From NCBI RefSeq assembly GCF_040807025.1, contig NC_090946.1, forward strand, positions 3,018,001 to 3,082,000: 64,000 nt of DNA, read 5' to 3'. The position numbers were made by a program, and so were the translations under genes. Positions within the stretch are counted from its first letter, which is position 1. Each line of letters opens with the position of its first letter. Below the pieces are notes generated by a model. It had not been told where the DNA came from and searched no databases. It was given only the letters and a program-made list of their open reading frames with translations. Shown piece after piece: positions 11,838 through 48,200 of the stretch. The DNA is from Struthio camelus (lineage: Eukaryota; Chordata; Aves; Struthioniformes; Struthionidae).

Positions 11838-14288
11838 ATGTCTCATGGGAGACTTCAAGCACCCTGACATCTGTTGGGAAGACAGCACAGCTAGGCACAA
11901 ACAGTCAAAGAGGTTCCTGCAGAGCACTGATGATAAGTTCTTGACACAGGTGGTGGAGACACCAACAAGGAGAGGAGGAGAGATGCAATGCTAGACCTTG
12001 TACTAACCAACAAAGAAGGTCTAGTTGGAGATGTGAAGGTTGGGGGCAGCCTTGGCTGCAGTGACTATGAGATGGTGGAGTTCAGGATCCTGTGAGGAGG
12101 GAGCAGGGCAATGAGTAGGATTGCAATGCTGGACTTGAGGAGAGCTAACGTTGGCCTCTTCAGGGACCTACCTAGGGGACTGTCATGGGGTAGGGCCCTA
12201 GAAGGAAGAAGGGTCCAAGAAAGCTGGTTAATATTCAAGTATCACCTCCTCCAGGCTCAAGATCGGTGCATCCCTCTGAGTAACAAGTCCAGCAAAGCGG
12301 GCAGGAGACCTACATGGATGAGCAAGGAACTCCTGGCCAAACTCCAGCAGAAGAAGGAAGTGTACAGAATGTGGCAAAGGGGACAGGCCACTTGGGAGGA
12401 ACATAGGGGCGTTGTCAGCGTGTGCAGGGATGCGACAAGGAAGGCTAAAGCCCCTTTGGAATTAAATCTGGCAAGGGATGTCAAGGACAACAAGAAGGGG
12501 TTCAGCAAAAGGAAGCCTAGGGAAAAAGTGGGCCCGCTGCTGAATGGGGCGGGTGCCCTGGTAACAAAGGATATAGAGAAGGCAGAGTTATTGAATGCTG
12601 CCTTTGCTTCAGTCTTTAGTGCTAAGGCCAGTCCTCAGGAATTCCAGACCCTGGGGACAAGAGAGGAAGGCTGGAGAAAGGAAGACTCTCCCTTGGTGGA
12701 GGAGGATCAGGTTAGAGATCTTTTGTCCAGACTTGACATCCATAAATCCATGGGCCCTGACGGGATGCAGCCACGAGTGCTGCGGGAGCTGGCGGATGTT
12801 ATTGCTAGGCCACTCTCCATCCTCTTGGAAAGGTCCTGGAGATCGGGAGAGGTGCCTGAGGCCTGGAAGAAAGCCAGTGTCACGCCGGTCTTCCCAAAGG
12901 GCAAGAAGGAGGAGGCAGGAAACGCCAGGCCTGTCAGCCTCACCTGCATCCCGGGAAAGGTGATGGAACAGCTCCTCCTGGAGGTCCTCACTAAGCATGT
13001 GGAGGACAAGAAGGCGATCAGGAGTAGTGAGCATGGCTTCAGCAAAGGGAAGTGATGCTTGAGCAATGTGCTAGCCTTCTGTGCTGGAATGACTGGCTGG
13101 GTAGGTGAGGGCAGAGTAGTGCCTGTTGTCTCCCTGGACTTCAGCGAGGCTTTGGACGCTGCCTCCCATCCCATCCTCCTAGGGAAGCTCAGGAAGTGTG
13201 GGCTAGAGGAGTGGCCGGTGAGGTGGATGGAGACCTGGCTGGATGGCCGAGCTCAGAGGGTTGTGGTGAACGGCGCAGAGTCAAGTTGGAGGCCTGTAGC
13301 TAGTGGTGTCCCCCAGGGGTCAGTCCTGGGTCCAGTCTTGTTCAATGTATTCATCAATGACCTGGAGGAAGGGACAGAGTGCACCCTCAGCAAGTTGGCT
13401 GCTGATACTAAGCTGGGGGGAGTGGCTGATACCCCAGAGGGCTGTGCTGCCATTCAGAGGGACCTGGACAGGCTGGAGAGCTGGGCGGAGAGGAACCTCA
13501 TGAAATTCAACAAAGGCAAGTGCAAGGGCCTGCACCTAGGGAGAAATAATGCCATGCAGCAGTACAGGCTGGGGGTTGACCTGCTGGAAAGCAGCTCTGC
13601 CGAGAAGGACCTGGGAGTGCTGGTGGACAATAAGTTAAGCACGAGCCAGCAGTGTGGCCTTGTGGCCAAGGAGGCCAATGGTCTCCTGGGGTGCATTAGG
13701 CAGAGTGTTGCCAGCAGGTGGAGGGAGGTGATCCTACCCCTCTCCTCAGCCCTGGGGAGGCCTCACCTGGAGTCCTGTGTCCAATTCTGGGCTCCCCAGT
13801 ACAAGAGAGACATGGCACTCCTGGAGAGAGTCCAGCGGAGGGCTACAAAGAGGATGAGGGGACTGGAGCACCTCTCCTCTGAAGAAAGACTGCGAGAGCT
13901 GGGCCTGTTGAGCCTGGAGAAGAGAAGACTGAGAGGTGATCTGATCAATGTGTATAAGTATCTGAAGGGGGAGTGTCAAGAGGATGAGGCCAATCTCTTC
14001 TCTGTGGTGCTGCATTTGGAAATCCCAGGACAAGAGGCAATGGGCAGAAACTGAACCACAGGAAGTTCCACCTAAGCCTGAGAAAAAACTTCTTGACTGT
14101 GAGGGTGACAGAGCATTGGAGTAGGTTGCCCAGAGAGGTAGTGGGGTCTCCTTCGCTGGAGATGTTCAAAACCCGCCTGGACGTGATCCTGGGCAACATG
14201 CTCTAGAGGACCCTGCTTGAGCAGGGGGATTGGACTAGATGATCTCCAGAGGTCCCTTCCAACCTAAACCATTCTGTGATTCTGTGAA
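11838..14288 (+). mobile_element. CR1 LINE, 5'-truncated
   Basis: A long plus-strand chicken-repeat-1 non-LTR retrotransposon. It begins inside the C-terminal part of the endonuclease domain (MGDFKHPDICW-like, then LDLVLTNKEGLVGDVKVGG), continues through reverse transcriptase and ends in the CR1 3' UTR, with the family hallmark GATCTCCAGAGGTCCCTTCC and the terminal octamer repeats ATTCTGTG ATTCTGTG at about 14271-14288. The 5' UTR, ORF1 and most of the endonuclease are absent, as usual for CR1 copies truncated on insertion. It lies between the left MRGPR gene and the MRGPR pseudogene at 15 kb. The 5' border is judged by loss of similarity and may be off by some tens of bases. Confidence 0.93.
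12111..14054 (+). pseudogene. CR1 ORF2 remnant: reverse transcriptase
   Basis: Two open segments (12111-13055 and 13059-14054) in one frame make up most of the CR1 reverse transcriptase. Recognisable parts in order are QDRCIPLSNKSSKAGRRP, the finger motif [58 protein letters not shown] (usually YLDFSKAFDTVSH), [20 protein letters not shown] and the thumb [24 protein letters not shown] at 13053-13055 separates the two segments. The catalytic FADD box reads LAADTKLGG, so one of the two essential aspartates has been lost. The copy cannot encode an active enzyme and is an ordinary dead LINE. Confidence 0.9.
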
Positions 14289-15019
14289 TGATGCACTAAA
14301 GATATTTGTTCACTACTAACTCTGCAAATTGGAAGCCATCCCCCCCTCCAAAGGCTAATTAGGGTGGTTGTGGTGACCATTGTGATTTTGCTTGTCTTCA
14401 GGAAGCTAGGATGTGGCTGACAAACTTAGCTGGGGGAAGCAGAAGAAGAATGGAGGCTGCCAAATGTAGAGAATGGACCATATGACCAGTTTTACAAAGG
14501 GGCCACTGGGGCAATCAAGGGTAAGATACAGAGATTTTCATCTGGAGCTGAACAGGAGCTATGGAGAAGGAGAAAGCCTGGGAACAGGAAGGAGCATGGT
14601 AACTGTGCATGAACTGAGACATATGAGAAACTGCAGAGCCCACCATGCCTCACTAAGTCCAGGATGAAATGTGTCAGCAAGGGTACAGGCCAATGAAGGA
14701 AAGGGACGAGGGTCTGAAGTCCTACGATCTACCCTTGCAGTATCCATGGAGAGCAAGGAACTGGAGTACTAGCTTGCATTAACTGTGTGCCACAGGTCCT
14801 CCTGAACGACCTCATAGGGTGACCACAAGGTCCATGAGGAAAAGGGACAGGGCAGGTGACCTCCTACTATCCTCTGACCCATGGTGCCTTCATGCAGAAA
14901 TAACACTAAGACATCTGTAGTGCTAGGCCACAAATGCACAGAAGCAGCTCCCTTCCCATCTGATGAATCTGTTAACACCTCAGAGGTGCTTAGGAGGGTG
15001 ACCAGGCATGGCGCTGAAG
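14289..15019. other. Intergenic, no gene seen
   Basis: Between the CR1 3' end and the MRGPR pseudogene I see no coding signal. The right-hand part may hold the decayed C-terminal tail and 3' UTR of the pseudogene, which is read leftward, but I cannot align it by eye. Confidence 0.5.
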
Positions 15020-15740
15020 AGCCATTCGTTGTCACTTCTGACTAAGATGTAAATAAAGGGGTTGATGTTGCTTCTTACAGAGGCTGGCAGGACAAATACA
15101 TCAGTGGGTTAAACCGAAGCAGGTCACAGGCTGGAGAAAGTTCTGAGCAGTGACTGGAACAGTGAAGAAAAGGGAAAAGTACTTACATAGAGAGCTTCCC
15201 AGCCAACAGTGCTCAGAACCATGTCAGACCTCAGAGAACAGGATCATGCTGGAAAGGACCATAAGTGGGGCAAAAATGAGGAAATTGGGAACATACATGG
15301 AGATTAGAGCCAGTCATCAGATTTTTGGCATGTCAGAAGCACATGGGAAGTGCACTAGTCCTATGAAAGAGCAAGAGAGATCCTGGAACAAGGCATGGTC
15401 CTAGTGGTTCTTGGTCCTAGTTCCAAGAAGGAAAGGAGACAGACAAGCACCTCTCATTGCCGGGGAGCTACAGACCCATGCTTTGTGACCACAAAGAGCA
15501 GCTCAAATGACATCTCAATGCTGGAAGTGTTAATATCTTAAGAACACACAAAGAATTGCACACCAGAAAAATGTTGAGGAAATCAGCTTTGAAGGGGAGG
15601 AAGCCAGACCTGACAACAGCCACATTAGGGTCCCAATGGTGAAGGAATTCCTTCTAACGTGACATAAGTGAAAACACACTGTGATCCCATTTTCCATCAG
15701 TCCACATAGGCACATTAGCCAGTTCCAACAGAGAAATACG
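15020..15740 (-). pseudogene. MRGPR receptor pseudogene
   Basis: Minus-strand remains of a Mas-related receptor in the same order as the intact genes. Near 15680-15720 a TM1 piece reads CLCGLMENGITVCFHLC, followed by VRRNSFTIGTL (TM2 entry). Near 15440-15460 the end of TM3 survives as GAGAGGTGC (the ERC codons) with a small deletion before it. At 15220-15290 the TM4-TM5 region matches the intact genes closely (compare 25010-25080). At 15020-15070 TM7 reads SNINPFIYILV. The pieces lie in different frames with small deletions, so no full receptor can be made. This is a host gene copy that decayed in place, not a processed copy: there is no poly(A) tail. Confidence 0.8.
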
Positions 15741-16448: not shown

Positions 16449-16537
16449 GTGCCTCCCACCCACAGAGCCCACACCAGCGGACAATGGAGATTACAAATGT
16501 GTGATAGACATCTCTGATGTGGCCCTGGATGGTGCCC
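16449..16537 (+). pseudogene. MRGPR N-terminal fragment
   Basis: About 90 bp matching codons 9-32 of the gene at 19716. It encodes EPTPADNGDYKCVIDISDVA against QPTPADDGDYKCVIDVSDVA, and similarity stops abruptly just after the codons for LDGA. Only the extracellular N-terminus is present, with no TM1 or later helices. It is in the same orientation as, and 3.3 kb upstream of, the intact plus-strand gene. It could be the edge of a partial tandem duplication or the scar of a deleted receptor copy. Confidence 0.75.
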
Positions 16538-16876: not shown

Positions 16877-19536
16877 TGGAAATTTGTATATTTATAAAAC
16901 ATGATATTTGGAGCACAACAAGAAGCTAAGGTGCAGAAATGCTTACCATAGTAAATTGAATGTTAAAAGGTATCTTGCCTTTAAGTACAATGCAATTAGA
17001 AAGATTGCATTGTTTGGAAAGTTTTCTGTAAGGAATATTTTTAAAGGATTATGTATAAACTGATAGGTAGGAAATAGCACATGCTCAAAGCCAGAGGTTC
17101 TTGAATCGAGAAGATACACTGATAATCAGAACATTACATACGTGTATGAGATGTAAAAGTTCCTTTGTTATACAGGAGCTGTCCAGATAATTTTAGAAAC
17201 GTACAGCAATAGTATAGGAAAAAAAGGTAACACCAGGGCCATACATGCTCAAGTCCACGCACTCACTTAGGGAGCATAACCTCCATGTTTCCTGTAGTAA
17301 CCTCAGTCGCTCTGAGGTTAGCACCAAGTACCAAGATCACTGGGTTATCGAACTAGATGGGACTTTCTGAATAATTTTCATGAAGGATGTCAACAAAGTG
17401 CAAATCAACCTGCAAGCTATATCTCCAAAGACCTTCCCCTGCAGCCACCAGGTGATTTTAGCTTAATAAATTGGACTTAAACATCATTCCTCCTCTTTCT
17501 AATCTACCTATAACTGTATATGTGGGATCCAGCTGTTTGTGTGCCCGCTGTATGTGCACAAACCATGGTTAATCTTTATTTTAATACATAAAGAGACTGA
17601 TAATATGTGATTTTGTAATATAACCTGAGATGAAGAAAGTGATGTTAGTGACACAAAATCCTTAGACATTACTCTGATGTTACAGAAATCATTGAAACCC
17701 GAATTATTTGATGAGATAACTCTGGTGCCTTTAGGGGCAAATTTTACACATTTACAAAATGTTTTAGAACACCCCAAGGCTACTGCAGCAATTTTAAACA
17801 GGTAGTCAGTCTGGCTACCAGGACAGAAATTAACAGTACCTCACAGTAACAAAGACATGACAAGCTGCCAAGGTAATAGAAGAGGCAAGGCACTACTCAT
17901 GATTGGGAATCCTTCCGAGAAAGGTCTTCTACAGCTACAGGCACTTTGAACCTAGCTTTACATCCCACAGCTGTCATTTTAATCATCATAACAATGATGT
18001 TAATGGGGCGAATCATATTGCCTATAAAATTAAGCCCTTGGCAAACGGATCAGTGGCTATACACCAAAGTGAAAAGCTGCAAGCCACCCACAGACCTGTC
18101 CAGGTTATTGTGAGACAAGGCCAGGTAGGGGAGGGTGAATGCCTCCAAGAAGAGCCATTGCTCAGTCCTCATGCATAGGAGAGTTTGCAACATTTTTGCT
18201 GAACTCAGTACCAACTGCCCGTGGTAGGTGGACTACCAGAAGGGTGGGATTGAACAAAAATAACTGTTAGCATACGCAGGAATGAGGAGGAGGAAACTCC
18301 CACCACCAACATCATACTTCTGGTAAAGAACTGGGAATGCTTACAGTTCATCCTAACAGCATGTTGGAAGGGTGAACATAGCACCAGAGAAAGAGGTAGA
18401 CACTAGAAAGCTGGTGTCTAATAATTGTAATTGTATTATTAAGACAAATTATCAATAACTAATCTGGAATATAAGTGTTAGTATAGCTGTAACCTGAGAC
18501 TGAAAATAATGGTTTGTTGTACTTTGATTATGCTGTTAATAGTCTATCAATTAGACTAACAACAAATGCTAATCCTTGGCTCTGCTTTGAACGTGTGTTC
18601 CCTTGTGCCCGTAGGAGATTTTAATGATAACCCCCCCTACTCTTCCCAGAAGGGTAGAGTTGCTTCTGAGAAGCACACAACCACTCCTCTGATATCTGCT
18701 TCCAGAAGTTTTTGTGCTAGAGGATTCCTCGAGGGGTGTGTAATATTCACGCTGAGGTATCAGATGCTGTGGGGCTGAGAAGTCCTGCAATGGACAGAAA
18801 GAGGAATGAAGAACCACAGAAACCTGTCAAGTAGGGGAGGAAAGGGAAGATGATACAAGAGAACAATTAGCAGGACAGTCATTGCAGCTAGTAGGAGAAC
18901 GTTTTTAATCAGATGTGTGCCAGGAGCCATTCACAAAATCCTGCTTGCAGAATTTCTGGCAGCAGTCACTTCCTCTATGGCAAAAGAATCAAGATAAATA
19001 AAAACAAGGAAGCAGAGCTCTGACGTAGACCATAGTTACAAAACTGTTCTCTGCTCCCTTACAACCCACACTGTGATTCTGGAAAGCTGGCGTGCATGCC
19101 ACAGAGAGGACTTACTGGGGACAAGACAAGAGGAAGATCAAGAGTAATAATATTGGGGATCTCCTGGCACCCCGGGGAGCACATTCTTCCTCACACATCT
19201 TTCCTGGAAGATCAGAATAAAGACATGGATTTGAAGGGAGCATGAGATGTGGAGACACTAACGCTCATCTGCCCAAGCCAAGCTAGTAAGAAAGCCCTTG
19301 TCTGCTGCTTCACCAAAGCTAAGTTAAATGCCATGTTTTTCTTCATCCCTATCACACTTTTCTTTCCTCTAGCTTCCGCTGCCAATAATTAAATCCCTCC
19401 CATGCGCTCCTGGCAACTTACAGCACTCCTTCCTTTTGTTCTTTCATCCTACCCTGCTCTTCCCTTCAGTGCCTCTCTGAGAATCAGTCCCTCCCATCCC
19501 ATATGTCTCTCCCATCCCCATGGTACCTATAACTTT
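16877..19536. other. AT-rich intergenic DNA upstream of the receptor palindrome
   Basis: No gene could be supported. GC content is visibly low from 16.7 to 18.6 kb and then rises. The last 150 bp before 19537 show weak, diverged similarity to the mirror flank right of 25794. The open frame at 17903-18178 has no recognisable motif. Confidence 0.5.
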
Positions 19537-20605
19537 TGTCCCCTGGACATGTCTCACTTGCCTGCCGGGGGTCCTGCGTGGACCTCCCCCTCCAGCGTGG
19601 GGAGCAGGCAAGAGGCTGCACGGCTCAGCTCCCAGCATCTCGGAGTCACTAACCCAATTGTCTCTGATCACAGCCGAGAGACCAGATCCCGCCACCCAGC
19701 CCAGCCTTCCTGGGGATGGAGCTGAACTACACGTACCTGCCACCCACACAGCCCACGCCAGCGGACGATGGAGATTACAAATGTGTGATAGATGTCTCTG
19801 ATGTGGCCCTGGACGGTGCCACACTGCTCATCTGCCTGTGCGGACTGGTGGGGAATGGAGCCGTCCTCTGGCTCCTCGGCTTCCGCATCCGCAGGAATCC
19901 TGTCACCGTTTACATCCTCAACCTGGCCTTTGCAGACTTCACCTTCCTCCTCTTCATGCTCACCTCCGCCCTGTTATACATCGTGGAGAATGTCTCCTGT
20001 TCCACTTTAGAGCTCCTGAACTATCTGAGGCCACTTTTCCTGCTGTCTCTCTTTGCCTACAACATGGGCTTATATCTCCTGGCAGCCATCAGCATTGAGA
20101 GGTGTGCATCCGTCCTGTGCCCACTCTGGTATCGCTGCCGCCGCCCTAAGCGCTTGTCAGCCATTGTGTGTGCCCTTCTCTGGGCTCTCTCCATCTCTGT
20201 AATTGCTACAGTGACTTTTCTCTGCATATCTCACCACCATGAGCACTGCCAGCTGGCTCTCATCTCCATGTATGTCCTTAATTTCCTCATCTTTGCTCCA
20301 CCCATGGTCCTCTTCAGCACAGTCCTGTTCATTAAGGTCCAATGTGGGTCACAGCAACATCACCTTGGGAAGCTCTACATCGTTATCTTCCTCACAGTCC
20401 TCTTCTTCCTCCTCTTTGCTCTTCCCCTCAGCATCTGGAACTTCTTACAGCAGTTTAACTATGTCGCCGGGCAGTCCCAGATTGTTTTCTTGCTAGCCTG
20501 TATCAACAGCAGCATCAACCCATTTATCTACTTCCTGGTGGGGAGCTACAAGAGGCATTGCTCCTTGGTCTCTTTGAAGGTTGCCTTCCAGAGGGTCTTT
20601 GAGGA
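19537..20605 (+). repeat. Inverted-repeat arm A (1069 bp)
   Basis: This block matches the reverse complement of 24726-25794. Both arms are exactly 1069 bp, so there are no net indels. I find no differences outside one patch (20279-20421) with about 31 substitutions. The arm covers the probable intron end, the acceptor at 19673, and the coding sequence up to codon 297. Confidence 0.9.
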
Positions 20606-20669
20606 GTTGGGAGATAATGCAGCATGTAGTGAGGATACTACAATGGACACACTAGCCTCAGTCTGTTAA
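19716..20669 (+). CDS. MRGPR-family G-protein-coupled receptor, copy A (317 aa)
   Basis: An intact single-exon coding region for a Mas-related class A receptor, a plasma-membrane sensor by family. An extracellular N-terminus of about 30 residues carries an N-glycosylation sequon (NYT at residues 4-6). TM1 has LICLCGLVGNGAVLWLLG; TM2 has LNLAFADF; TM3 ends in AISIERCASVLCPLWY (ERC replaces DRY, typical of the family); ICL2 has RCRRPKRLSA; TM7 has INSSINPFIYFLVGSY. The ATG sits in GGGGATGG, 42 bp after a good acceptor (TCTCTGATCACAG, exon from 19674), so a noncoding first exon is likely. The gene faces its near-identical twin at 24698-25615 across a 4.1 kb spacer. Residues 1-297 equal the twin except for 17 changes between residues 189 and 236. 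The tail (LGDNAACSEDTTMDTLASVC) is unique. The exact orthologue name is not certain. Confidence 0.95.
   Translation: MELNYTYLPPTQPTPADDGDYKCVIDVSDVALDGATLLICLCGLVGNGAVLWLLGFRIRRNPVTVYILNLAFADFTFLLFMLTSALLYIVENVSCSTLELLNYLRPLFLLSLFAYNMGLYLLAAISIERCASVLCPLWYRCRRPKRLSAIVCALLWALSISVIATVTFLCISHHHEHCQLALISMYVLNFLIFAPPMVLFSTVLFIKVQCGSQQHHLGKLYIVIFLTVLFFLLFALPLSIWNFLQQFNYVAGQSQIVFLLACINSSINPFIYFLVGSYKRHCSLVSLKVAFQRVFEELGDNAACSEDTTMDTLASVC
20279..20421 (+). other. Diverged TM5-ICL3-TM6 patch between the twin receptors
   Basis: Within otherwise identical arms, about 31 of 143 bases differ: 28 of them at 20279-20371 and three adjacent ones at 20419-20421. They change 17 residues. Copy A reads LFSTVLFIKVQCGSQQHHLGK where copy B reads ISNVILFIKILCGSQRRQPR. 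The third intracellular loop and the ends of its helices contact the G protein. Confidence 0.88.
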
Positions 20670-21285
20670 AAGCCTTTCCACTGTTCTGCTTCATGCCCCC
20701 TGGACAAAGGATGAGGGTTTTCTTCGGTAACTGGATTAAATAAATTCGTCTATATTAATTCCCCTAAAGTCACCCATCAGCAGTGCAATTGCGTTCCCTA
20801 GAAGAAATCAGGGCTGGGCTATGTAGAAGATTGATATGGGGAAAGAAGCTCTATGGGGAGAAAGTGTGTTGGTGCACAGCATTTGCATCCCCATCAGCCC
20901 ACACCAGTTCCAAAAGTACTATTCCCCCGCTAACAGAAATATGTCAAAGAGGACCATGTTCCCATCTCACACACTATCAAATAATCCAGCGTCTGCTGAC
21001 TGGGGTGGACATTGCATTTGGGAAACCCTGACCCATATTCAGACTAGAGGGTAAAACATAGTCAATATCCTGAGCTCTTCTCCCCCATCTCACCTCCAAC
21101 CTGACACAGGTTGTCCCAAGTTCTGCTCCCCTTCTATTTCTAGAAATGCTGATTGGGGAGGATGGAGGGGTCATCACCCCCTCACAGACACTCTGCCGAT
21201 GCCTCTCAGCCCTTCCCTCGCATGGATACTCCCCTCCTGTATCTCACTGCTGCTTGATATCAATAAACAGCATTGCGCACACCTG
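20606..21285 (+). other. Copy A tail, 3' UTR and poly(A) region, homologous to the copy B 3' side
   Basis: After the stop at 20669 the sequence can still be matched, with many substitutions and gaps, to the reverse complement of 23850-24725. A shared anchor is the stretch TATCTCACTGCTGCTTGA followed by T-ATCAATAAACAG just before the poly(A) site. Divergence is far greater than in the coding arms. Confidence 0.75.
21262..21267 (+). terminator. Poly(A) signal AATAAA, receptor copy A
   Basis: A canonical AATAAA lies 593 bp after the stop codon and is preserved at the matching place in copy B, which supports real use. Confidence 0.7.
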
Positions 21286-23049
21286 AGCTGCCTTCGATTT
21301 CTGTCCAAGCACTTGCTGGATATCTGGAGCTTGTTCTGGGTCCTGCTTTGAGGTTCAGGGTCCTGGTGGAGGGAAGGAGAAATATATACATTGCTCTAAT
21401 TCTCCATAGCAAAAATATTACTAGCTCCCCTTCAGATGTGACTGCCTTGCTTCACACTGAATTTGAGGAGGCAGAATAGGGGCTAAGGAGTTAGACCATG
21501 CCTCCAGGCTGTTTTACTAGTTTCACAGGAAATATCTCCCCTAATTTTTCTTTTATTTTTAACTTTGCTAGACGAGTCGAAGGATAATGTGTTCTTCTGA
21601 AATTCTCCCTTGATCATGGTAGGCTGGAGTATTTCTTTTTCTTCTCTAATGGGGGAGAGTGGGAGGGGAGAGTGGCAAGTGGAAGAGAACGGAAAGTCTG
21701 CTAGCTACCCTTTCAAAACAAAGAGTACTCTGGTTTCCCTTGAAACTGCCTGTAAAGTCAGCTATGAAAATCACTGTATTTTCTGAGGGAGCTATGGTAC
21801 ATAACATAAAGTTATGAGTCCTCACAAGCTGTATATAAAATGTGTCAGGTCCCTTCCAGTCCTCACTGAGGAGGACGTGCTCTTCTCAAGAGCAGAGCAG
21901 CTTTCATGGTCAGGTCTTTGCAAGAGCAAAGGAAGGATGAGTCCACTGTCACAGGCCTGGCCAGGACCTTCTTCAAACATGGTGCAATGTTTTATTGTCA
22001 CTACGGCCTCTGCCTGGTATGACACATGTCTCTAGGTTGTTGTTAAGCTCTAAGCTGGTAGCAAAGTCTCCTGTAATAGGGAGAGCCATAGGTGCCCAGG
22101 GTTAATTCACAAAGGAAAGTTTTCTAAAATGATGTGGGAGGACTCTGAGCATGGCCACCCTGCCAGACATGTAAGTCATTTCAGAGCATAAAGTCAGGTA
22201 GGGACCTCAGAAATGAGCTGGGAACATTTAAGAGGAGAAGGCCATAAAGCAAACGACATACTCCCTGCAGACACGTCAGGTGGGGCTGCAGGGAGAATCC
22301 TTTTACAATACCAGCTCCATGACCCACCTATCTCTGCCCTAAAAATGCAGAGGAGCTGCTTGGAAGCGTCAGTAGAGAGTGGACATCTTCTTGCATACCG
22401 CAGCCTGACGGGGGAGGGCACTGAGACAAGAAGAGCAGGGCACTGAAGGTTCATCTCCCTTGCTGTGAGGGGGTGCTCTGCAGCCAATAGGGACTTCTAT
22501 CAAATGGAGGAAAGTCCTGTGGCGTTTCTCACCAGCTGGACACTTCATGCTACTCAACTGCAGGCCAGCACAGTAACAATGTCAGCACCCTTTCCAAGGC
22601 AGCTGATAGAAACTGAGGTCTTCCCGGAGATTCTGGTCTCCGCTGGGATCCAGAGGAGCCATGGATCCAATCTCACTTTGGTGTCTCTGCAATAAAGTTG
22701 GGTGGGCTGAGTTGGGGCTCCCAGGGTAGGCAGAGAGCTGCTCTCAACCCTGCCCAGGACAGCTGGCATGAGGAGCAGACAGCACAGGTGTCATTCAGAG
22801 GCTTCTGAAGCTAGGCAGAGGGGTGAAAGTATATTGCCCACAGCTGTGCAGAGGTGTGTCAGATGGCCTCTGAACTAAGCGCCATCATGCCATGACTTGG
22901 TTTCCCCCATTGCCATTTAAGGGGCAGAGGGGAGGGACATTGCTCCTTCTCTATCTGCCATGCAGACACTCCAGAGCTGCACTGCTTACCCTCCTCGCTT
23001 CCTGCCCCTCCGTCGCAATCAGGGCTGGCAACTCATCAGGTCCCACTGA
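21286..23049. other. Spacer of the receptor palindrome, no gene seen
   Basis: This is part of the central spacer between the converging receptors. It shows no recognisable coding or repeat content. Several short frames are not supported by any motif. Confidence 0.5.
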
Positions 23050-23215
23050 GTGCCAGCCCCACCATGTCCTGCACTAGCCACCCTCCATGATAATCACCAC
23101 CACATCCTGCATCTCGACCACCCTCCTTGAAAGCCCCACCACATCCTACTCCCTCCACTCTCCATGATACCCCTCCATGTCCTGCACCCCATACCACCAA
23201 CCCTCCATGAGAGCC
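23050..23215. repeat. Minisatellite, about 40 bp unit, four imperfect copies
   Basis: Repeated units of the form CCACCATGTCCTGCA followed by CCACCCTCCATGA recur at roughly 40 bp spacing between the two receptor genes, each copy differing at several bases. Confidence 0.75.
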
Positions 23216-23849
23216 CTTGAGGTTCTGGTGCTGTCCTGTGGCCTGCTCATCCTAAGCTGCTGTACTGGGGTTTTCGGAGGGGGCCGCTTCTCTCCCAGCT
23301 GGGGAAATCCTCACACTGGCTGGAAGAGGAGCCACCCACCACCCATCTCAGGTCTCCCAGGTGCTGTCTTCTTCCACTGGGCTCCCTAATTGGGTCAGTG
23401 TTGGTGGGGACAAGCAGCCTCCACCTTGCTTCCCACTGCAGTTGCCCCACAGGGGCCACAATTCAATGCACCCAACATGATGCCAATGAGACAGCTGGCT
23501 GGCCCCAGGGTGCCCCTCAGCCCCCTTTGTCAGTGCCTCTTCTCAGAGCAGAAGGGCAAGAGAATATGGAGATGTGGGCCCTGCTGCAAGCCTTGGGCGA
23601 ACCAGGCACAGGGTTGCCTTGCCCTGACAAAACGTGGCTCCTGAACAAGGTGACAGGAGGATTTAGGCTGTACCTATACCCTAGCCTGGCGTCCCTCAGC
23701 CTGCTGTGCTCCCGGTTGCAGGTGACATCTCAGAGATGCTTCAGGTACCCACACCATTTGGGGGATGAGGCTGGATAGATCCCTGGCCACACAGGGAACC
23801 CCCAATGAACCCCCCAATACCTAGTGAGCCCTTGGACACAAATAAAATG
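23216..23849. other. Palindrome spacer, right part, no gene seen
   Basis: A GC-richer stretch up to the 3' end of receptor copy B. Open frames at 23398-23778 have no recognisable domain. Confidence 0.45.
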
Positions 23850-23872
23850 CAGCTCAGGGATGCACGACACTG

Positions 23873-23878
23873 TTTATT
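23873..23878 (-). terminator. Poly(A) signal AATAAA, receptor copy B
   Basis: TTTATT on the plus strand is AATAAA on the minus strand, in the context ATCAATAAACAG, the same as in copy A. It lies about 820 bp after the copy B stop. Confidence 0.7.
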
Positions 23879-24697
23879 GATGTCAAGCAGCAGTGAGATA
23901 TAGGAGATGGGGATTTGGGTGAGGGGAGGGCTGTGGGCATCAGCAAAGCATTGCAAGGGAGCAGCAGACCCCCTGCCCTGCAGGTGTTTCTGGTAATAGG
24001 AGGGAGAGCAGAGTGTGGGAGACCCTGTGCAGGTTTGGAGGTGGGATGGGGGAGAAGGACTTAGGACATTGCATGCATTTTATTCCTACTCTGAACATGG
24101 GTCTGGGATTTCCAAATGCAGCATCCATCCTGGGAAGCAGAAGCTGGGCTATTTGACAGCATATTTGACGGTTCTGGGGCACATCTGTGTTCAGGGGAAC
24201 AGTATCTCTGGAGCTGGTCTGGGCCCATGGGGCCATGCCGCAGTGTTGCAGAGAGCCCCTTCACCACCAAATCTCAAAACATCCCTTCCCCGAGAGACTG
24301 CTCTGAGTGACAAATGCATTGTCTCAGAAGAGCTTCTTTGAAATCTCCGATTTCTTGTTCTCACACTGGAGGGCAGCAAAACTCTTTGTATTCCTTCCTG
24401 CTCTCCTCAGAGCTGGGCTGCCGGAGGGAAGCAGCAGAGTCCCAAACAAAACAAATCTCGTGGAGAGCCAGGTTTCTTGTGCAGAAGAGCACGAGAGAAA
24501 ACGGAAGGAAACAGCTGCTGGAAGCAGGACAGACATTGCTGCTAGTCCAGACCTGGGACAGGGAGGCCTCCTGACACTCCAGCTGCAGGAAGGTAAGCTG
24601 CATTCCCTGGCACCAGAGAAATCGGCCACAATGACACATTGCCAACTGAGCATGAAGCGGGCGTAGGTAGCACAGCTGATGTGGCCACAGCGGTCTC

Positions 24698-25615
24698 TTA
24701 GCTGGAGATGGTGGTAACCACCGTTTCCTCAAAGACCCTCTGGAAGGCAACCTTCAAAGAGACCAAGGAGCAATGCCTCTTGTAGCTCCCCACCAGGAAG
24801 TAGATAAATGGGTTGATGCTGCTGTTGATACAGGCTAGCAAGAAAACAATCTGGGACTGCCCGGCGACATAGTTAAACTGCTGTAAGAAGTTCCAGATGC
24901 TGAGGGGAACCACAAAGAGGAGGAAGAAGAGGACTGTGAGGAAGATAACGATGTAGAGCCTCCTGGGTTGACGTCGCTGTGAGCCACATAGGATCTTAAT
25001 AAAGAGGATCACATTGGAAATGACCATAGGTGGGGCAAAAATAAGGGAAGTGAGGACATACATGGAGATGAGAGCCAGCTGGCAGTGCTCATGGTGGTGA
25101 GATATGCAGAGAAAAGTCACTGTAGCAATTACAGAGATGGAGAGAGCCCAGAGAAGGGCACACACAATGGCTGACAAGCGCTTAGGGCGGCGGCAGCGAT
25201 ACCAGAGTGGGCACAGGACGGATGCACACCTCTCAATGCTGATGGCTGCCAGGAGATATAAGCCCATGTTGTAGGCAAAGAGAGACAGCAGGAAAAGTGG
25301 CCTCAGATAGTTCAGGAGCTCTAAAGTGGAACAGGAGACATTCTCCACGATGTATAACAGGGCGGAGGTGAGCATGAAGAGGAGGAAGGTGAAGTCTGCA
25401 AAGGCCAGGTTGAGGATGTAAACGGTGACAGGATTCCTGCGGATGCGGAAGCCGAGGAGCCAGAGGACGGCTCCATTCCCCACCAGTCCGCACAGGCAGA
25501 TGAGCAGTGTGGCACCGTCCAGGGCCACATCAGAGACATCTATCACACATTTGTAATCTCCATCGTCCGCTGGCGTGGGCTGTGTGGGTGGCAGGTACGT
25601 GTAGTTCAGCTCCAT
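24698..25615 (-). CDS. MRGPR-family G-protein-coupled receptor, copy B (305 aa)
   Basis: Minus-strand twin of the gene at 19716-20669: an intact single-exon Mas-related receptor with seven predicted helices, ERC after TM3 and SINPFIYFLVGSY in TM7. The N-terminus, TM1-TM4 and TM6-TM7 are the same as copy A at both protein and, as far as I can check, nucleotide level. The differences are a cluster in TM5-ICL3 (PPMVISNVILFIKILCGSQ), two residues in TM6 (VVPLS against ALPLS) and a shorter C-terminus ending FEETVVTTISS. The exon probably starts at 25657 after the acceptor GATCACAG. The gene converges on copy A. Ligand unknown. A collapsed or duplicated assembly is unlikely because spacer and flanks differ, but long reads would settle it. 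Confidence 0.95.
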   Translation of the reverse strand: MELNYTYLPPTQPTPADDGDYKCVIDVSDVALDGATLLICLCGLVGNGAVLWLLGFRIRRNPVTVYILNLAFADFTFLLFMLTSALLYIVENVSCSTLELLNYLRPLFLLSLFAYNMGLYLLAAISIERCASVLCPLWYRCRRPKRLSAIVCALLWALSISVIATVTFLCISHHHEHCQLALISMYVLTSLIFAPPMVISNVILFIKILCGSQRRQPRRLYIVIFLTVLFFLLFVVPLSIWNFLQQFNYVAGQSQIVFLLACINSSINPFIYFLVGSYKRHCSLVSLKVAFQRVFEETVVTTISS

Positions 25616-25794
25616 CCCCAGGAAGGCTGGGCTGGGTGGCGGGATCTGGTCTCTCGGCTGTGATCAGAGACAATTGGGTTAGTGACTCCGAGATGCTGGG
25701 AGCTGAGCCGTGCAGCCTCTTGCCTGCTCCCCACGCTGGAGGGGGAGGTCCACGCAGGACCCCCGGCAGGCAAGTGAGACATGTCCAGGGGACA
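24726..25794 (-). repeat. Inverted-repeat arm B (1069 bp)
   Basis: Mirror of 19537-20605, including the upstream noncoding stretch with the acceptor. At both arm ends identity drops abruptly to weak similarity, as expected for the ends of a gene-conversion tract. Confidence 0.9.
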
Positions 25795-26912
25795 GAGGTC
25801 CTGTGTGACAGGGGAAACAGTGATGGCTGAGGACACGAAGGCAAAAGGATGGGTGGGGACGTGGCCAGCTGGAGAGGCTGCTTTGCCACTGATGTTCAGG
25901 GAGGCGAATGTGGAAGAGAGATTGGACAGGCTCCAAGATGTCCAGAGGAAGGATATGTGTGGGAGTGGGTGAGAAGGGCTAGGGGCTGGAGGGAACTCAG
26001 AAGAGAAACGGAGAAAGACTGATGCAGCTCGTTATAGCTTGGGCTGCAGTCTCGCAATCCCCTACCTTTCCAGGCAGCAGGCTGGAGCTGATCTTCTCCC
26101 ACATCCAAGCAGGGCACGCTCCCTCCTTTTGGGTCTCCTTGCTTGATCTTTTCAGATAAGGAGAAATCAGGTCTCTGAGTCCTGAGAAGACTTGGGTAGA
26201 CAATCACTTCTTGTGTCCTTCCAAATAATGCTGCTCTCTGGGGCGTTTCTGCAAGATCAGGTGGTGAGAGAGCACTGGGCAGTTTCAGAGATACAGACTA
26301 CATCACTGAGCCTCTTCCCTCATCGGATTTCTGTTGGTCTTGCTGGAACGGAAATGTTTTGTCCAAGAGAATACCCCAGAGGACCAATATTGCAGCAGTT
26401 ACATCTGTCTGTGAAAGAATCTTGGTGCTTTTACGATTCAACCTGATATCTCCTTAGACTGATAATTACCACCTTCCTAATTGTTTTATTGTGCCCCAGT
26501 CTTCTCCCCCTTCCATCCTACCCTGATTCTGGCATGCTTCTGAGATTATTCATTACTGTTTGCATTTGTCTTCCAGCCTCCCAGCATGTGAATAGGTGCT
26601 GTATCACATCCACATTCCTCTTGCAAGCAAGCCTATTTAGGAATTTGCGCTGTTTCAGGTGTCTCCTAAGTGGTACGGGGCCTGCAGGGAACAGCTACCT
26701 GAGGCACTATGTTTCTGCAGTAGCACTTTAAGACTACTTTTCCCTTCCTAAAAGACTCCCCAGGGAACTACATACTCTGAAAATTCTCCATGACTTGAAG
26801 ACCCTCTGCAGACACATCTGCCTTCACAGCATGATGACCAGCCCTCTCCCTTCGGAGTAACAGATCTAGTAGGAGGTCACAGCACCCCAGATTTCTGAAG
26901 ACCAAAATAACT

Positions 26913-30239: not shown

Positions 30240-32493
30240 ATGCAGCAGGCGCCCAAGGGGCACAGCCCGGCCCGGGCTCCCCCGGCCGAGGCCAAGGAGA
30301 CGGAGATCAAAGCTGTCATCGTCGGGGACGGGGGCTGTGGGAAGACATCGCTGCTCATGGTCTTTGCCAGAGGGGACTTCCCCAAGGTAAGGACCCCCCC
30401 CCGGCTGCCCCCATGCAGCTCCAGGGCTGGGGGTGTCCCTGCACTCTGCTCCTGGGACATCTCAGCCCCCATGCAGAGGGACCCTCTGCTCCTCCGGGTC
30501 CCCATGAGACCCTGCGCCCCCCACCAGGTCCCCTCTGAGGCCACATCTCCGAGGTGGTGGTCACCACTTCCCAGAGCAGCCCCCAAGCCCCAGCCCTCCC
30601 ACAGCGTCTTTCTCCCCACCCCCAAAAGAGTTGCCAGGGTTGGAGAACAGCTCCCTGGGGGCCCAGAGAGGGTTAAGGGAGGAGGTTTAAGGGAGGAGGC
30701 CGAGGGAACCCGCCGACATCGCCAGCAGAGGCTCCACTTGCAGCCTGAGGAAGAGCAGTGGGATGCAGGGAGGTGGGGGAGTCCCCACCCCCGGCTTGGG
30801 GAGGCCCTAGGCCAGTGGTGGCCCTGTTCGGGGCTGAGCAGAGGGCTCCTGCTGTGGGGCTGATGGCAGCCCTGGCCAGGTGGTAAGCACCCACCGCAGC
30901 TGGGCAGCAGGTGCCAGAGGGTGATGGCCGGCATTTGCTCGGGTCGGAGGCCGCTCGTGCTCTCTGATGCCCGGGGGCCAGCACGGGGTGTCCGTCCTGG
31001 AGGCATGGGAGCAACCTGGCACCTCTTCGAGGACACCCTTTGCGCGCCCGAGCTCTCCGGCTCCCTGGGACCATCTCACACTCGCCCATGCCCTGCCAGG
31101 TCTACGTCCCCACAGTGTTCGAGAAGTACACAGCCTCCTTCCAGGTTGGCAGCAAGCCTGTGAAGATCCACCTCTGGGACACGGCAGGTGGGACAGGAGG
31201 GGACAGGAGGGGATAGGGCAGGCAGTCATGCCCAGCAGGGGCACCGGATGGTCCCCCAGCCCCAGGCCACCTCTGGGACTTGGGGTGTCCCACAGACATG
31301 ACACTGCATGCTGTGGGAGCTCTGTCTCCTCACGTACAGATCCACAAGAGACTGGGCTTTGACCCACAGCTGGCCAGTCTCCCGTCCCCAGAGGACGTCA
31401 CCGTGTGGACTGTGGGGAAACAGAGTTGCCCTGTCCATCCCTGGACCCCCCTCCAAGGTGGAGGGACAGGACATGGTCCTCAGGCTGGGTTGGACCAATA
31501 AATGCAGGTTGGGATGGGGACCCAGTCCAGTAGGGAACTGGTATTTAATGGTGTGCTGCTCTGCCTGGCAGGACAGGAAGATTATGACAGGCTTCGCCCA
31601 CTGTCTTACTTGGATGCCAATGTTATCCTCATGTGCTTTGATGTCACTAACCCCAGCAGCTATGACAACATCCTAACGAAGGTAACACCACCACCAGGGT
31701 GGGGACTGGCTCCTGCCCCACATGTCCTCCCTGAGGAAAGGGGAATAGAAGGAAAAACTTCTTTCCTGTGAGGGCGACCGACCCCTGGAACAGGTTGCGC
31801 AGAGAGGTTGTGCTGTCTCCATCCTTAGAGATGTTCAAAAGCCATCTACGAAGGATCCTGGGCAACGTGCTCTAGGTGACCCTGCTTGAGCAGGCGCATT
31901 GGGCTAGATGATCTCCAGAGGTCCCTTCCCACCTCAACCCTTCCATGGTTCTATGAAGGTGGCACCAAGCTGGGGCTGCCACCTCCCTTTTGGGCCTGGG
32001 GTGGCCCACATCACCTTCCCCATGGTGCCATGCCAGCCACATCCAGCTTCCCCTCTCCTGCCCCATGCAGTGGTGCCCGGAGGTGAACCACTTCTGCAAG
32101 GGTGTCCCCGTGGTGCTGGTGGGCTGCAAGACCGACCTGCGGAAGGACCGGGCCGTGCTGCATAGGCTCCATGAGGACCGCCTGGAGCCCATCACCTTCC
32201 AGCAGGTGAGACCCCCAGCCCCATGCTGAGGAGCCCTTGTGGGGCACCCCGCAGGAGAGCTGGGGTTCCCCCCAGGAGGGTGGCCAGGCCAGCGGGGGAC
32301 TCACAGCCCCCTCCACCCCGTGCAGGGGGAGGCCATGGCCCGGCTGGTCCACGCAGCATTCTACTTCGAGTGCTCAGCCAAGTACCAGGAGAACATCTCG
32401 GCCATCTTCGTGGCAGCTTGCAAGGCCGCACTCAGCACCGTGCGGAGGACCCAGCGCCGGAGGCGACCCAAGCGGGACTGTGTGCTCTGCTGA
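30240..32493 (+). CDS. RHOD: Rho-family small GTPase RHOD, five coding exons, 215 aa
   Basis: Coding exons 30240-30386, 31100-31187, 31572-31681, 32071-32205 and 32326-32493, all with GT/AG borders and matching phases (648 nt). The product is a GTP-binding switch of the Rho family; RHOD acts in endosome movement and actin-based protrusions. Motifs: P-loop GDGGCGKTS (residues 29-37), switch I VPTVFEKY with the key Thr at 54, DTAGQ (76-80, catalytic Gln present), GCKTD (133-137), ECSAK (175-179), a basic tail [12 protein letters not shown] and CaaX box [25 protein letters not shown] and CPEVNHFCK resemble RHOD; EKYTAS, SYDN and the basic tail resemble RHOF. The place just before KDM2A in the same orientation decides for RHOD, since RHOF lies near KDM2B in mammals. 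Its N-terminus before the P-loop is somewhat long. A CR1 tail sits in intron 3. Confidence 0.9.
31747..31956 (+). mobile_element. CR1 LINE 3' fragment in RHOD intron 3
   Basis: About 210 bp of the CR1 3' end: GGAAAAACTTCTTTCCTGTG, GAACAGGTTGCGCAGAGAGG, GATCTCCAGAGGTCCCTTCC and a decayed terminal repeat TTCTATGA. It is in the sense orientation to RHOD, between exon 3 and exon 4, and touches no splice site. Confidence 0.92.
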
Positions 32494-33084: not shown

Positions 33085-33735
33085 CATGGCTATATACACG
33101 CATGTGCATGTGTGTATACATATGGGTGTTTTGTATACAGGTGAGTATATACGTGTGTCTGTGCATGTGACTATAGGTGTGCATCTATATGTGTGTATGG
33201 GGTTATAGACATGTGCATGCCTGTGTCCTCTAGGTCTATGTGCATGCATATATGTATGCATATGAATGGCTATGTATATAGATGTGCCTTTGTGCACATG
33301 CAAAAGTGTATGCATACATGTATGTATATGTGCCTCTATATATGTATGTCCTTGTGTGCATGTGTATAGATTTGTAAACACTCATGTATGAGTGCATATG
33401 TGTGTAGGTGTGCATATGTATATGTATTTGTTTACATGTGGGTCTATGTGTACCAAGACATATTTGTATGTCTGTATATACATGTACACCTGTATATAGA
33501 AGTATATACATGTATATATGTAGATGCACTTGAGTGCCTTTACAGATATGCAGGTGTGCATATATGTATATGTGTGTGTGTGTGTGTATAGGTTTGCAAA
33601 TGTACAGATATGCATACAGGTATATAAAGGTGTGCATTCCTGCATACAGGTGTGTGCGTGTATATATGTATGCATATATATACACAGGTGTATGTATATA
33701 CACACCTGCCTCTATGTCTCTATAAATGTAGAGAG
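33085..33735. repeat. 650 bp degenerate TG/TA simple repeat
   Basis: Nearly every word is a variant of TATGTGTG, TATATGTA or GTGTGCAT, with no fixed unit. It fills most of the gap between the RHOD 3' end and the KDM2A CpG island. The alternating purine-pyrimidine pattern favours Z-DNA. Confidence 0.9.
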
Positions 33736-33906
33736 GGCTGCACATAGGCGAACCGGTGGGCGCACTCACGTGCACCCCGGTGCCAGCACGTCTCTATAGG
33801 GGCACAGGTCTCCATAGGTGCACACAGGCGCGGCACTCACGGGCGGTCACGTGTCTCTCCATGCGTTCCCCCCACCCCTCCCGACACGGCCGCGGCCCTG
33901 ACCCAG

Positions 33907-45200: not shown

Positions 45201-48200
45201 ATGAATAGCTGTCCACAGGAGTTGCTTGTTGCTCTGTGTCTGCACTTGAGGTGGTTCAGACAAAACTGGGGACTGAATCGGTCATGAGGAAGAAGAGATG
45301 AGTCCATTTGACCAGATTTCTCTCTCTTCTGGCTCTGCAGGGCCTTGTTTTGTGCGTCTGTGTCACTGTTGCTGTAGAAACAATACTGGTGGTAAACAGT
45401 GTGAACTGGCTGTCCGGGGACTCTGAATCCCTGTGGAAATTCCAGGAACCTAAAGAAACTGAAGAAGGTTTTGGGCTGGGATCTGCCCTGGAGTTGTGGG
45501 GTAGTAAGAAAAGACAGGTGGGTTTACCCTTGTGCAGCAGCAGTTCAAAAGAGAGGTGTGCTCCCTGTAGTGCTTCCACACAGGTTGGGTTCCAGGAAGG
45601 ATGCAGATCTGAGTTGCATCCTTGCTGCCAAAAGAGCTGAGGGGTATGGTTTACAGCACCGTATGTGACGTACTTATGTATGTGTGAGCAAGCTGTTGTG
45701 GGGAGGAGGGTAGAAAGGCACAGGCAGCTTTTATTGCTGTTAACTAGAACAGGTCATATCCACAGCGAGGTGATGGGTAGAGTGGAGACCTCTCCTCCCT
45801 GTAGCACACTAAACATGGACTGCGTTTTGTCTTTTCCCAGCTCTTACATGTGTTAGCTATCACACTGTACACAAAAGCAAGACTATAAAAAAGCCCCCCG
45901 CACACGCACCTTTTTTGGCAAGGAAGAGGCTCGGCGCAGGATGTGATTGTCGTCTGTGGTTTGTTAGTACCAGTCCTAAGGGTTGGGAACCGACTGCAGA
46001 ATCATGTTGTTGTATCTTAGCCAGTCCTGGGAGAGTTTGGAAGAGGAGGAGTTGCTTGATAAAAGGCACCAGGAGAAGGATCAGGAAGTTACTTGGCAGG
46101 GATTGTTATCTAGAGAAGCAGATCCCAGCTGGTGAGGCACATTCTTGCTACAAGTGAGACATGGAGAGGGGATGATCCTTTTTGATGTTGCCTCTTACCT
46201 TGCCTTAACTTTCAATGGGATGGTGCTGAGAGGGTAGGAGAAGGTAGAGGCAGTGCTGCAGGACTTGGGGAGAAAAGCTGATGGGGGAGCAAGGATCAGA
46301 AAGGGGAGGAGCAGAGAAGCCTGCCAAAAAAAAGGCTGGCCTGTGCTGTTCCAGTCCTGTGGTGCCCTGCCTCCCTCTTGTTCTCCCATGTACCCCTGGC
46401 TCCTGGGAACTGTGATCTTATGAGCAAACTGCAGCAGCTGGAAGTGGAAATCAGAGGGCTGGAAACACATGCTCCTTTAGGGTTAGACTGCCTAAGTGTC
46501 TCTAGCATGCTACTGACACACAAACGTTTCCGTATGTCACCGAACTCCTAATCTCCTTTGCCTTGTTTGGAGTAAGGAAGGGGAAGGTACTGGACATCTT
46601 GTGAAGCAAAGAGGGAAGGAGTGTGTGCAGTGATAGTACCCCTTTGCAGAGTTCAGGGGGAATCTCCTTCCCAGAAGAGGGTTTCACAGGCTGACCATGT
46701 ACTTCCCAATGACCGTGTGCTGTTTTTCTCCTTCATCCTAGGCCCTTTAGCCTAAAGTTCAGACAGCCCTTTACTAGTACCTTTAAAAGACAGGGTCAGC
46801 TTAGCAGGAATGCAGTGCAAACCCGAACACTTCCTATGCTTTTGCTGTCCAAGTACTCCCATGATCTGGCCTTGTTCAGTTTGTGTGATGGGACAGAAGT
46901 GCAGTAGCACAAGGCTGTAGATTTCAACAGAGCTGGATTGGGACAGTAGGAAGTTCAGAGGATCAGTTCTTCCTCACTGAAAAACCTGAGCTGGTCATCT
47001 AAATGCTCACCACATTATGGAGAGCTGGAGAGGTGCTTTGCCTCTCCGAGCAAGGTGCAAGTTATGCAGAGCAGATCTACAGTTAGATCAGCTGCACCCC
47101 TGTCCCTGAATGCAGGCGGTTCTGTTTTCCTCCCTTGTGCTAGCTCTGCTATCTCTGCCTAGTGATTCATTTAGGCTCACCAGCCTGGAAGAAAACTGTC
47201 CATTCTCTTTCACAAGATTAATTCTTGCCAGGGGTAACAAGCTGAAGTGATTCACCAATGTGTGCCAGAAACAGAGCAAGGAAGGGAGAGGTGAGGTGTT
47301 ACAGCTGCGGATGGTCCTAGGGAGGATGAGGGCAGAGGAGAAGTGCCCCTTTTGGCAGGGTGAGATTGACTCTTAGGTCAGGTCAGCTGCTCTTTGAGCC
47401 ATATCTCAGAACTGAGATAAATACTTCTCTGGAGGTGTTGTTCTCTTTCCACCCTCAGCAGAGGGAGCCTAGAGAGCAAACTTGGGCTCTCTTCTGAAGT
47501 TAGTTGTCTAATAGGAAGAATGGTGATTCTCCCAGCTGGCATAGGACACTGTTCCTCAGATCAAGGAATGGAAATGCTGTTTCTCGCACACCTAGCATAG
47601 CACCACAAAGCACTGATGGATACAGATCACTGAATCACAGAATGGTTGAGGTTGGAAGGGACCTCTGGAGATCATCTCGTCCAATTCCCTGCTCTCACCA
47701 AGAGCACGTTGCCCAGGATTGTGTCCAGATGGCTTTTGAATATCTCTAGGGAGGGAGACTCCACTACCTCTCTGAGCGACCTGCTCCAGTGCTCCATCAC
47801 CCTCTCAGTAAAGTTTTTCCTCATGTTCGGACGGAATTTCCTGTGTTTCAGTTTGTGCCCGTTGCCTCCCGTCCTGTCAGTGGGCACCACTGAGAAGAGT
47901 CTGGCCCCATTCTCTTGACACCCTCCCTCCCCTCTGATACGCATTGATCAAATCCCACCCCCCTCGGTCTTCTCTTCTCCAGGCTGAACAGGCCCAACTC
48001 CCTCAGCCTTTCCTGATATGAGAGATGTTCCAATCCCTTAATTGTTTTAGTAGCCCTTTGCTGGACATGCTCCAAGAGCTCCATGTCTCTCTTGTACTGG
48101 GGAGTCCAGAACTGGACCCAGTACTCCAGGTGAGGCCTCCCCAGGGCTGAGTAGAAGGGCAGATCACCTCCCTCGACCTGCTGGCAACACTCTGCCTAAT

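Follow-up and report, generated by a model that had tools for sequence, protein, structure and literature searches.

Near-identical segments within otherwise diverged genes have been described for the avian receptor paralogues TLR1A/TLR1B and TLR2A/TLR2B and ascribed to gene conversion (PMC3125219, PMC8788240); in TLR2A/TLR2B, two converted regions lie around an unconverted middle (PMC3125219). The boundaries of TLR conversion were not moved by adding the 3′ untranslated region (UTR), cattle excepted, and the dates given for birds range from 0 to 20 million years (My) (PMC3125219, PMC8788240). In mammals, the clustered G-protein-coupled receptor (GPCR) paralogues CCR2/CCR5 and CCR1/CCR3 exchange coding segments, leaving mosaic genes (PMC2880985), and BMP8A/B, DDX19A/B and TUBG1/2 are old inverted or direct duplicates with raised GC that have evolved in concert for more than 100 My (PMC2720389). 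The paired receptors of the CEACAM family have a ligand-binding part kept alike by conversion and a signaling part that differs, and the inverted arrangement of their cluster has been discussed as a possible favoring factor for conversion (PMC2832619). Gene conversion also keeps alike the inverted arms of sex-chromosome palindromes, which are more than 99% identical (PMC3723533, PMC8981503). The MRGPR genes of sauropsids form a large, locally duplicated group (PMC6504862), and a predicted MAS-related receptor has been cloned from adherent mononuclear cells of chicken blood (PMC3899309). No report of gene conversion in MRGPR genes was found in the open-licence PMC literature. Here, we analyze two MRGPR genes, A and B, in a 64,000-bp stretch of the ostrich (Struthio camelus) assembly (contig C5, positions 3018001–3082000; “the window”, whose own numbering is used unless C5 is given). 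In this one genome, A and B are very probably old duplicates whose coding exons were recently homogenized by interlocus gene conversion.

Two Inverted Arms With Abrupt Limits

Genes A (19716–20669, + strand, 317 amino acids) and B (24698–25615, − strand, 305 amino acids) are converging open frames of class A receptors and belong to a cluster at C5:2989437–3043615 that comprises seven receptor genes with open frames (A–G). Both contain the class A seven-transmembrane domain PF00001 (E = 6.5 × 10⁻¹⁶ in A and 1.7 × 10⁻¹⁷ in B). Their nearest solved relatives are MAS and MRGPR, which also account for all 17 distinct PDB sequences that B matches at E values up to 1 × 10⁻⁴⁰.

The two genes are carried by inverted arms of 1069 bp each, at 19537–20605 (+) for A and 24726–25794 (−) for B, which align without indels, the sum of paired positions being 45331. 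Base-by-base comparison detected no differences in the first 742 bp (tract 1; 19537–20278 in arm A, + strand, and 25053–25794 in arm B, − strand) and none in the last 184 bp (tract 2; 20422–20605, +, and 24726–24909, −). All 31 differences fall in the 143-bp patch in between (20279–20421, +, and 24910–25052, −), 28 of them in 20279–20371 and 3 in 20419–20421. A repeat search recovered the inverted pair 19517–20605/24726–25814, 4120 nt apart. The first-pass annotation of the window, made from the letters alone, had reported two converging receptor genes in inverted 1069-bp arms without indels, free of differences outside one patch and separated by about 4.1 kb; both approaches bear it out on each of these points.

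Tract 1 comprises the likely 3′ end of an intron, 42 bp of 5′ UTR, codons 1–187 and most of codon 188; the likely splice acceptor AG ahead of the coding exon of gene A, read by eye, is at 19672–19673 (+). The coding tails, i.e., the last 20 codons of A and the last 8 of B, are left out of the identity. The arm limits are abrupt: immediately outside the 5′ end (19517–19536), 9 of 20 positions differ, and in full 50-bp bins beyond both arm ends, 35–39 of the 50 positions differ in ungapped comparison, as they would in unrelated sequence. The outer parts of the 4120-bp spacer (20606–24725) are the coding tails and diverged 3′ UTRs, and no homology was detectable between spacer segments 21361–22260 and 22880–23780.

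A genome search with a 2.4-kb query consisting of gene A and its flanks listed nine matches; beyond the query itself, the single long one above 90% was arm B (97%), and the others were a fragment of 88 bp (91%) and weaker ones. An 88-bp stretch at 16449–16536 matches the sequence coding for the N-terminal part of A and B (19733–19820) at 91% identity and reads as a stray piece or the remnant of a third copy; homology to the arms beyond this fragment was not reported. An MRGPR pseudogene remnant, P, about 62% identical to A, lies at 14967–15395 (−), and the translated match to 15125–15718 contains seven stops.

Divergence of the Flanking Sequences

Downstream of the arms, the two loci are homologous. 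Out of 448 aligned positions of the 3′ flanks, 330 are identical (74%; Jukes–Cantor (JC) distance 0.32), and the strict local score of 158, compared with a shuffle mean of 13.3, was reached in none of 500 shuffles. The homology (20889–21360 on the side of gene A) runs to just past the polyadenylation signals and no further. The 3′ UTRs had been described as homologous and heavily diverged, with ends at 21285 and 23850. The alignment supports this description, and AATAAA motifs at 21262 in A and 23878 in B fit the ends, so that the 3′ UTRs would occupy 20670–21285 (+) and 23850–24697 (−), respectively.

Upstream, the first 380 bp beyond 19517/25814 contain no detectable homology, the score being attained in 97 of 500 shuffles. 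An island farther out, at 18760–18935 (+) for gene A and 26410–26591 (−) for gene B, has 118 of 168 positions identical (70%, JC 0.38), and the score of the 980-bp flank containing it was reached in none of 500 shuffles. The proposed homology of the 5′ flanks thus holds for the island and not for the sequence next to the arms.

As can be seen, flanks and arms, which the annotation had compared, are unequally diverged: 26–30% of positions differ in the homologous flanks and none in the tracts. The arms are not uniformly more than 99% identical, as those of a large palindrome would be, given the patch with its 31 differences and the 74% identity of the homologous 3′ flanks. Near-identity with abrupt limits inside diverged homologous sequence is instead the pattern of a conversion mosaic.

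Identity at Synonymous and Non-Coding Sites

Nonsynonymous (dN) and synonymous (dS) divergence was determined by Nei–Gojobori counting. The identical codons 1–187 and 237–296 contain no differences at about 178 synonymous sites. Nor are there any in the 179 non-coding bp of the tract, of which 137 are likely intronic and 42 belong to the 5′ UTR, so that within the tracts A and B are identical at both classes of sites, as conversion predicts. In the patch core (codons 188–219), there are 11.8 differences at 23 synonymous sites (dS 0.87, dN 0.26). Since 0 of 178 synonymous sites differ in the tracts as opposed to 11.8 of 23 in the patch core, protein constraint cannot explain the identity. Fisher’s test on these synonymous sites, with the core entered as 12/23, gives p = 2 × 10⁻¹³, a post hoc value, as the patch was chosen for differing. 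The tract also differs from the 3′ flanks (118 of 448 positions different; p = 4 × 10⁻²⁰) and from the 5′ island (50 of 168; p = 2 × 10⁻¹⁸), and none of 20,000 random placements confined the 31 coding differences to 143 of 888 bp.

Synonymous sites do evolve in this family: dS is 1.6–2.3 (dN 0.52–0.62) in the whole-gene pairs CE, CG, EG, FG and EF and ranges from 0.83 to saturation when A is compared segment by segment with C, E, F and G. Strong purifying selection acting alone to hold the exon identical therefore has next to no probability in our view. Parts of the receptor are indeed conserved throughout the cluster, e.g., transmembrane segments (TM) 1–2 at about 0.8 identity, but the synonymous sites and the 137 bp of likely intron are identical as well, and the whole-gene pairs just listed have diverged at synonymous and nonsynonymous sites alike.

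A Second, Probably Homogenized Pair in Direct Orientation

Two further genes of the cluster, C (C5:2989437–2990390, +) and D (C5:2995274–2996209, +; its start codon was picked among several in frame), start 5.8 kb apart. In this direct orientation, they have no differences over 907 bp (C5:2989486–2990392 and C5:2995305–2996211), a stretch that begins in codon 17 of C and closes two bases beyond the stop codon, and the alignment ends abruptly on both sides. In alignment, the 1-kb flanks are indistinguishable from shuffled sequence: the scores were attained in 463 and 374 of 500 shuffles. The N-terminus is private to each gene, and so, as judged by eye, is the splice acceptor. The upstream acceptor region of D resembles that of gene G (z = 12.6); for the upstream region of C, z stayed below 3.5 in comparison with each of the six others. 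When the genome was searched with C plus flanks, ten matches were listed, of which D was the sole near-identical one beyond C itself. The homogenized pairs take in four of the seven cluster genes, E, F and G being outside.

Since the directly oriented C/D pair looks like A/B, a palindromic arrangement seems, as far as can be read from the sequences, not to be required. Privacy of intracellular parts was considered as a general rule and rejected: C and D differ at the N-terminus instead. Downstream of C and G there is a weak similarity (z = 3.6) that is equaled by the best shuffle.

Age and Base Composition

For dating, an avian substitution rate of 1.9 × 10⁻⁹ per site and year was taken. At this rate, the A/B flanks would be about 85–100 My old, while the last homogenization of A/B would have taken place less than about 2.6 My ago (95% bound), since none of 303 nearly neutral positions (124 fourfold degenerate and 179 non-coding) differs. 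The corresponding bound for C/D, with 0 differences in about 151 fourfold sites, is 5.2 My. With rates from 1.0 × 10⁻⁹ to 2.5 × 10⁻⁹, the estimates are 65–190 My for the flanks, 2.0–5.0 My for the A/B bound and 4.0–9.9 My for the C/D bound. Whatever the rate, the ages of flanks and tracts differ by more than one order of magnitude. The annotation had proposed an old duplication with a core that is repeatedly or recently homogenized. Recent homogenization agrees with the absence of differences at 178 synonymous and 179 non-coding sites, as opposed to 26–30% divergence in the flanks; “repeatedly” goes too far, since one event per tract suffices.

The GC content at third codon positions (GC3) of the homogenized segments is 0.70 and 0.78 in A/B and 0.80, 0.91 and 0.70 in C/D, in every case above that of the corresponding segments of E, F, G, H and I. 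The intron part of the tract has a GC content of 0.63, compared with 0.46 and 0.56 upstream. In these comparisons, made without a significance test, the higher GC3 and intron GC could reflect biased conversion.

The 143-bp Patch

According to alignment with MAS and to receptor topology as we take it to be, the patch spans lower TM5, intracellular loop 3 (ICL3) and two codons of TM6. In its 93-bp core, A and B are 69.9% identical, and for the seven other receptor genes aligned, identity to either version peaks at 62.4%. Pseudogene P, compared over 128 aligned positions of the patch, agrees with A at 87 and with B at 82, and A and B agree with each other at 98. Since the patch core is about as diverged as the 3′ flanks and the patch is nearer to no other copy tested, it looks like an unconverted island that holds the old A/B divergence.

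Two other accounts of the patch were tried and rejected. There is no sign of positive selection (dN 0.26 and dS 0.87 in codons 188–219; dN 0.19 and dS 0.48 in codons 188–236). As for a third donor, neither version is nearer to any tested family member than A is to B. A lost or unsampled donor that replaced the patch after a single conversion of the whole 1069 bp is nonetheless conceivable, if unlikely: the patch edges are abrupt and a donor may have been lost, but both the core, where A is nearest to B, and the matches of pseudogene P point the other way.

Probable Interlocus Conversion and Its Alternatives

We infer conversion as the process that homogenized A/B, and likewise the cause of the tract limits and the dates. 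A and B would go back to an old inverted duplication of a MAS-related receptor gene, and in a recent non-crossover interlocus conversion, one coding exon and about 137 bp of the intron before it would have been copied onto the other, the coding tail being excluded. A break repaired from the paralogue would give identity at all site classes, abrupt limits, a surviving island and a second pair. The patch may have escaped because the copying proceeded in two tracts, of 742 and 184 bp, or in a single discontinuous one; alternatively, later allelic recombination may have restored it. Conversion was probably limited to the exon and its edge since the drifted non-coding flanks were too dissimilar for strand invasion. 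In C/D, the same process probably acted in direct orientation.

Two explanations without conversion between old loci have to be weighed. The consensus of one copy could have been written over the other during polishing or gap filling, and the fact that both identical stretches are about 1 kb long and lie within one cluster would suit such an artefact. It is very unlikely, however: the 104 kb examined contain no N; the assembly (1.45 Gb in 262 pieces) fits a long-read assembly, though the pieces could be scaffolds; the patch with its 31 differences persists in the middle of the arm; and fold-back chimeras would carry the flanks along, yet the flanks differ. Recent duplication of a piece of about 1 kb, as a retrocopy or by transposition, would agree with C/D flanks that align no better than shuffles and with the A/B 5′ flanks, whose closest 380 bp are likewise at shuffle level. 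For A/B, a recent copy into new surroundings is disfavored because the flanks are homologous, with diverged 3′ UTRs, polyadenylation signals and the upstream island in common. Nor do the tracts coincide with mRNA ends: they start in a likely intron (A/B) or at codon 17 (C/D) and end before the stop codon (A/B) or two bases past it (C/D). C and D, moreover, have distinct N-termini, and the acceptor region of D is like that of gene G. Taken over both pairs, we consider such a duplication highly improbable.

Some observations do weigh against recent conversion between old duplicates. The C/D flanks are without detectable homology, so the age of that pair is not fixed by them, and for its 907 bp the case against recent copying to another locus is weaker than for A/B. 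The total GC content of tract 2 is just 0.49. A column-permutation test, which gives p = 0.0002 for A/B and C/D, also flags A–E, A–F, B–F, C–F and D–F (p = 0.002–0.02); since the A–F signal corresponds, by sliding identity, to conserved TM1–TM2, this test alone proves little. An older A/F conversion in TM1, suggested by the permutation flag and an 80% match, was rejected: C and G are similarly close to A (0.80 and 0.79), which is conservation.

Comparison With Described Systems

Conversion of the A/B kind is a known process, which most likely acted here in MRGPR genes. A close likeness is that to TLR2A/TLR2B, which are also bird receptor paralogues with an identical–diverged–identical layout; they belong to another protein family, and the TLR case was made across species, whereas that of A/B concerns one genome. 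The CCR pairs are likewise mosaics of clustered GPCR paralogues but are mammalian and not MRGPR. BMP8, inverted and 235 kb apart, resembles A/B in having homogenized segments in old duplicates; unlike A/B, however, concerted evolution of BMP8A/B, DDX19A/B and TUBG1/2 was shown phylogenetically to be long-lasting and includes introns. In contrast to the sex-chromosome palindromes as described, the identity here covers about 1 kb within diverged sequence, a patch is present, and orientation seems irrelevant. The CEACAM receptors are of the immunoglobulin (Ig) type, and the private parts of the MRGPR genes, unlike theirs, vary by pair, being TM5–ICL3 and the C-tail in A/B and the N-terminus in C/D.

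A paired-receptor reading, with a common sensor and private signaling parts, is suggested by analogy and is given little weight, because the private part of C/D is N-terminal and the patch has no excess of amino acid change. The broader proposition, that of a permanent hotspot of conversion in the bird MRGPR cluster, where selection favors pairs with a common ligand-sensing body and private regulatory parts (TM5–ICL3 and the C-tail in A/B), with loci perhaps 65–100 My old or more being repeatedly rewritten exon by exon, strikes us as unlikely. If selection did keep the patch, TM5–ICL3 would be the part where twin receptors must differ.

Conversion confined to exons misleads trees built from coding sequences, since the duplicates seem young while their flanks are old. 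Should the same be true in other birds, the MRGPR receptors would be a further example alongside TLR1/TLR2 of birds and CCR2/CCR5 of mammals. With an inverted and a direct pair, the cluster also lends itself to comparing conversion by orientation.

Other Features of the Window

A degraded element resembling a long interspersed nuclear element (LINE), with an RVT_1 domain in its second open reading frame (ORF), lies at 12111–14054 (+); we take it, as a guess, to be CR1. The segment 13413–14287 is 85% identical to a copy running the other way, the similar DNA lying at 47627–48482 (−). An exon-like ORF at 30240–30863 (+) contains the start of a Ras-family GTPase domain (22.2 bits, compared with a Pfam cut-off of 21.6) and presumably belongs to a Rho-type gene, which is again a guess. 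Diverged internal repeats, about 61–65% alike, are present at 33094–33743, and the histidine-, tyrosine- and isoleucine-rich ORFs of this region are probably spurious.

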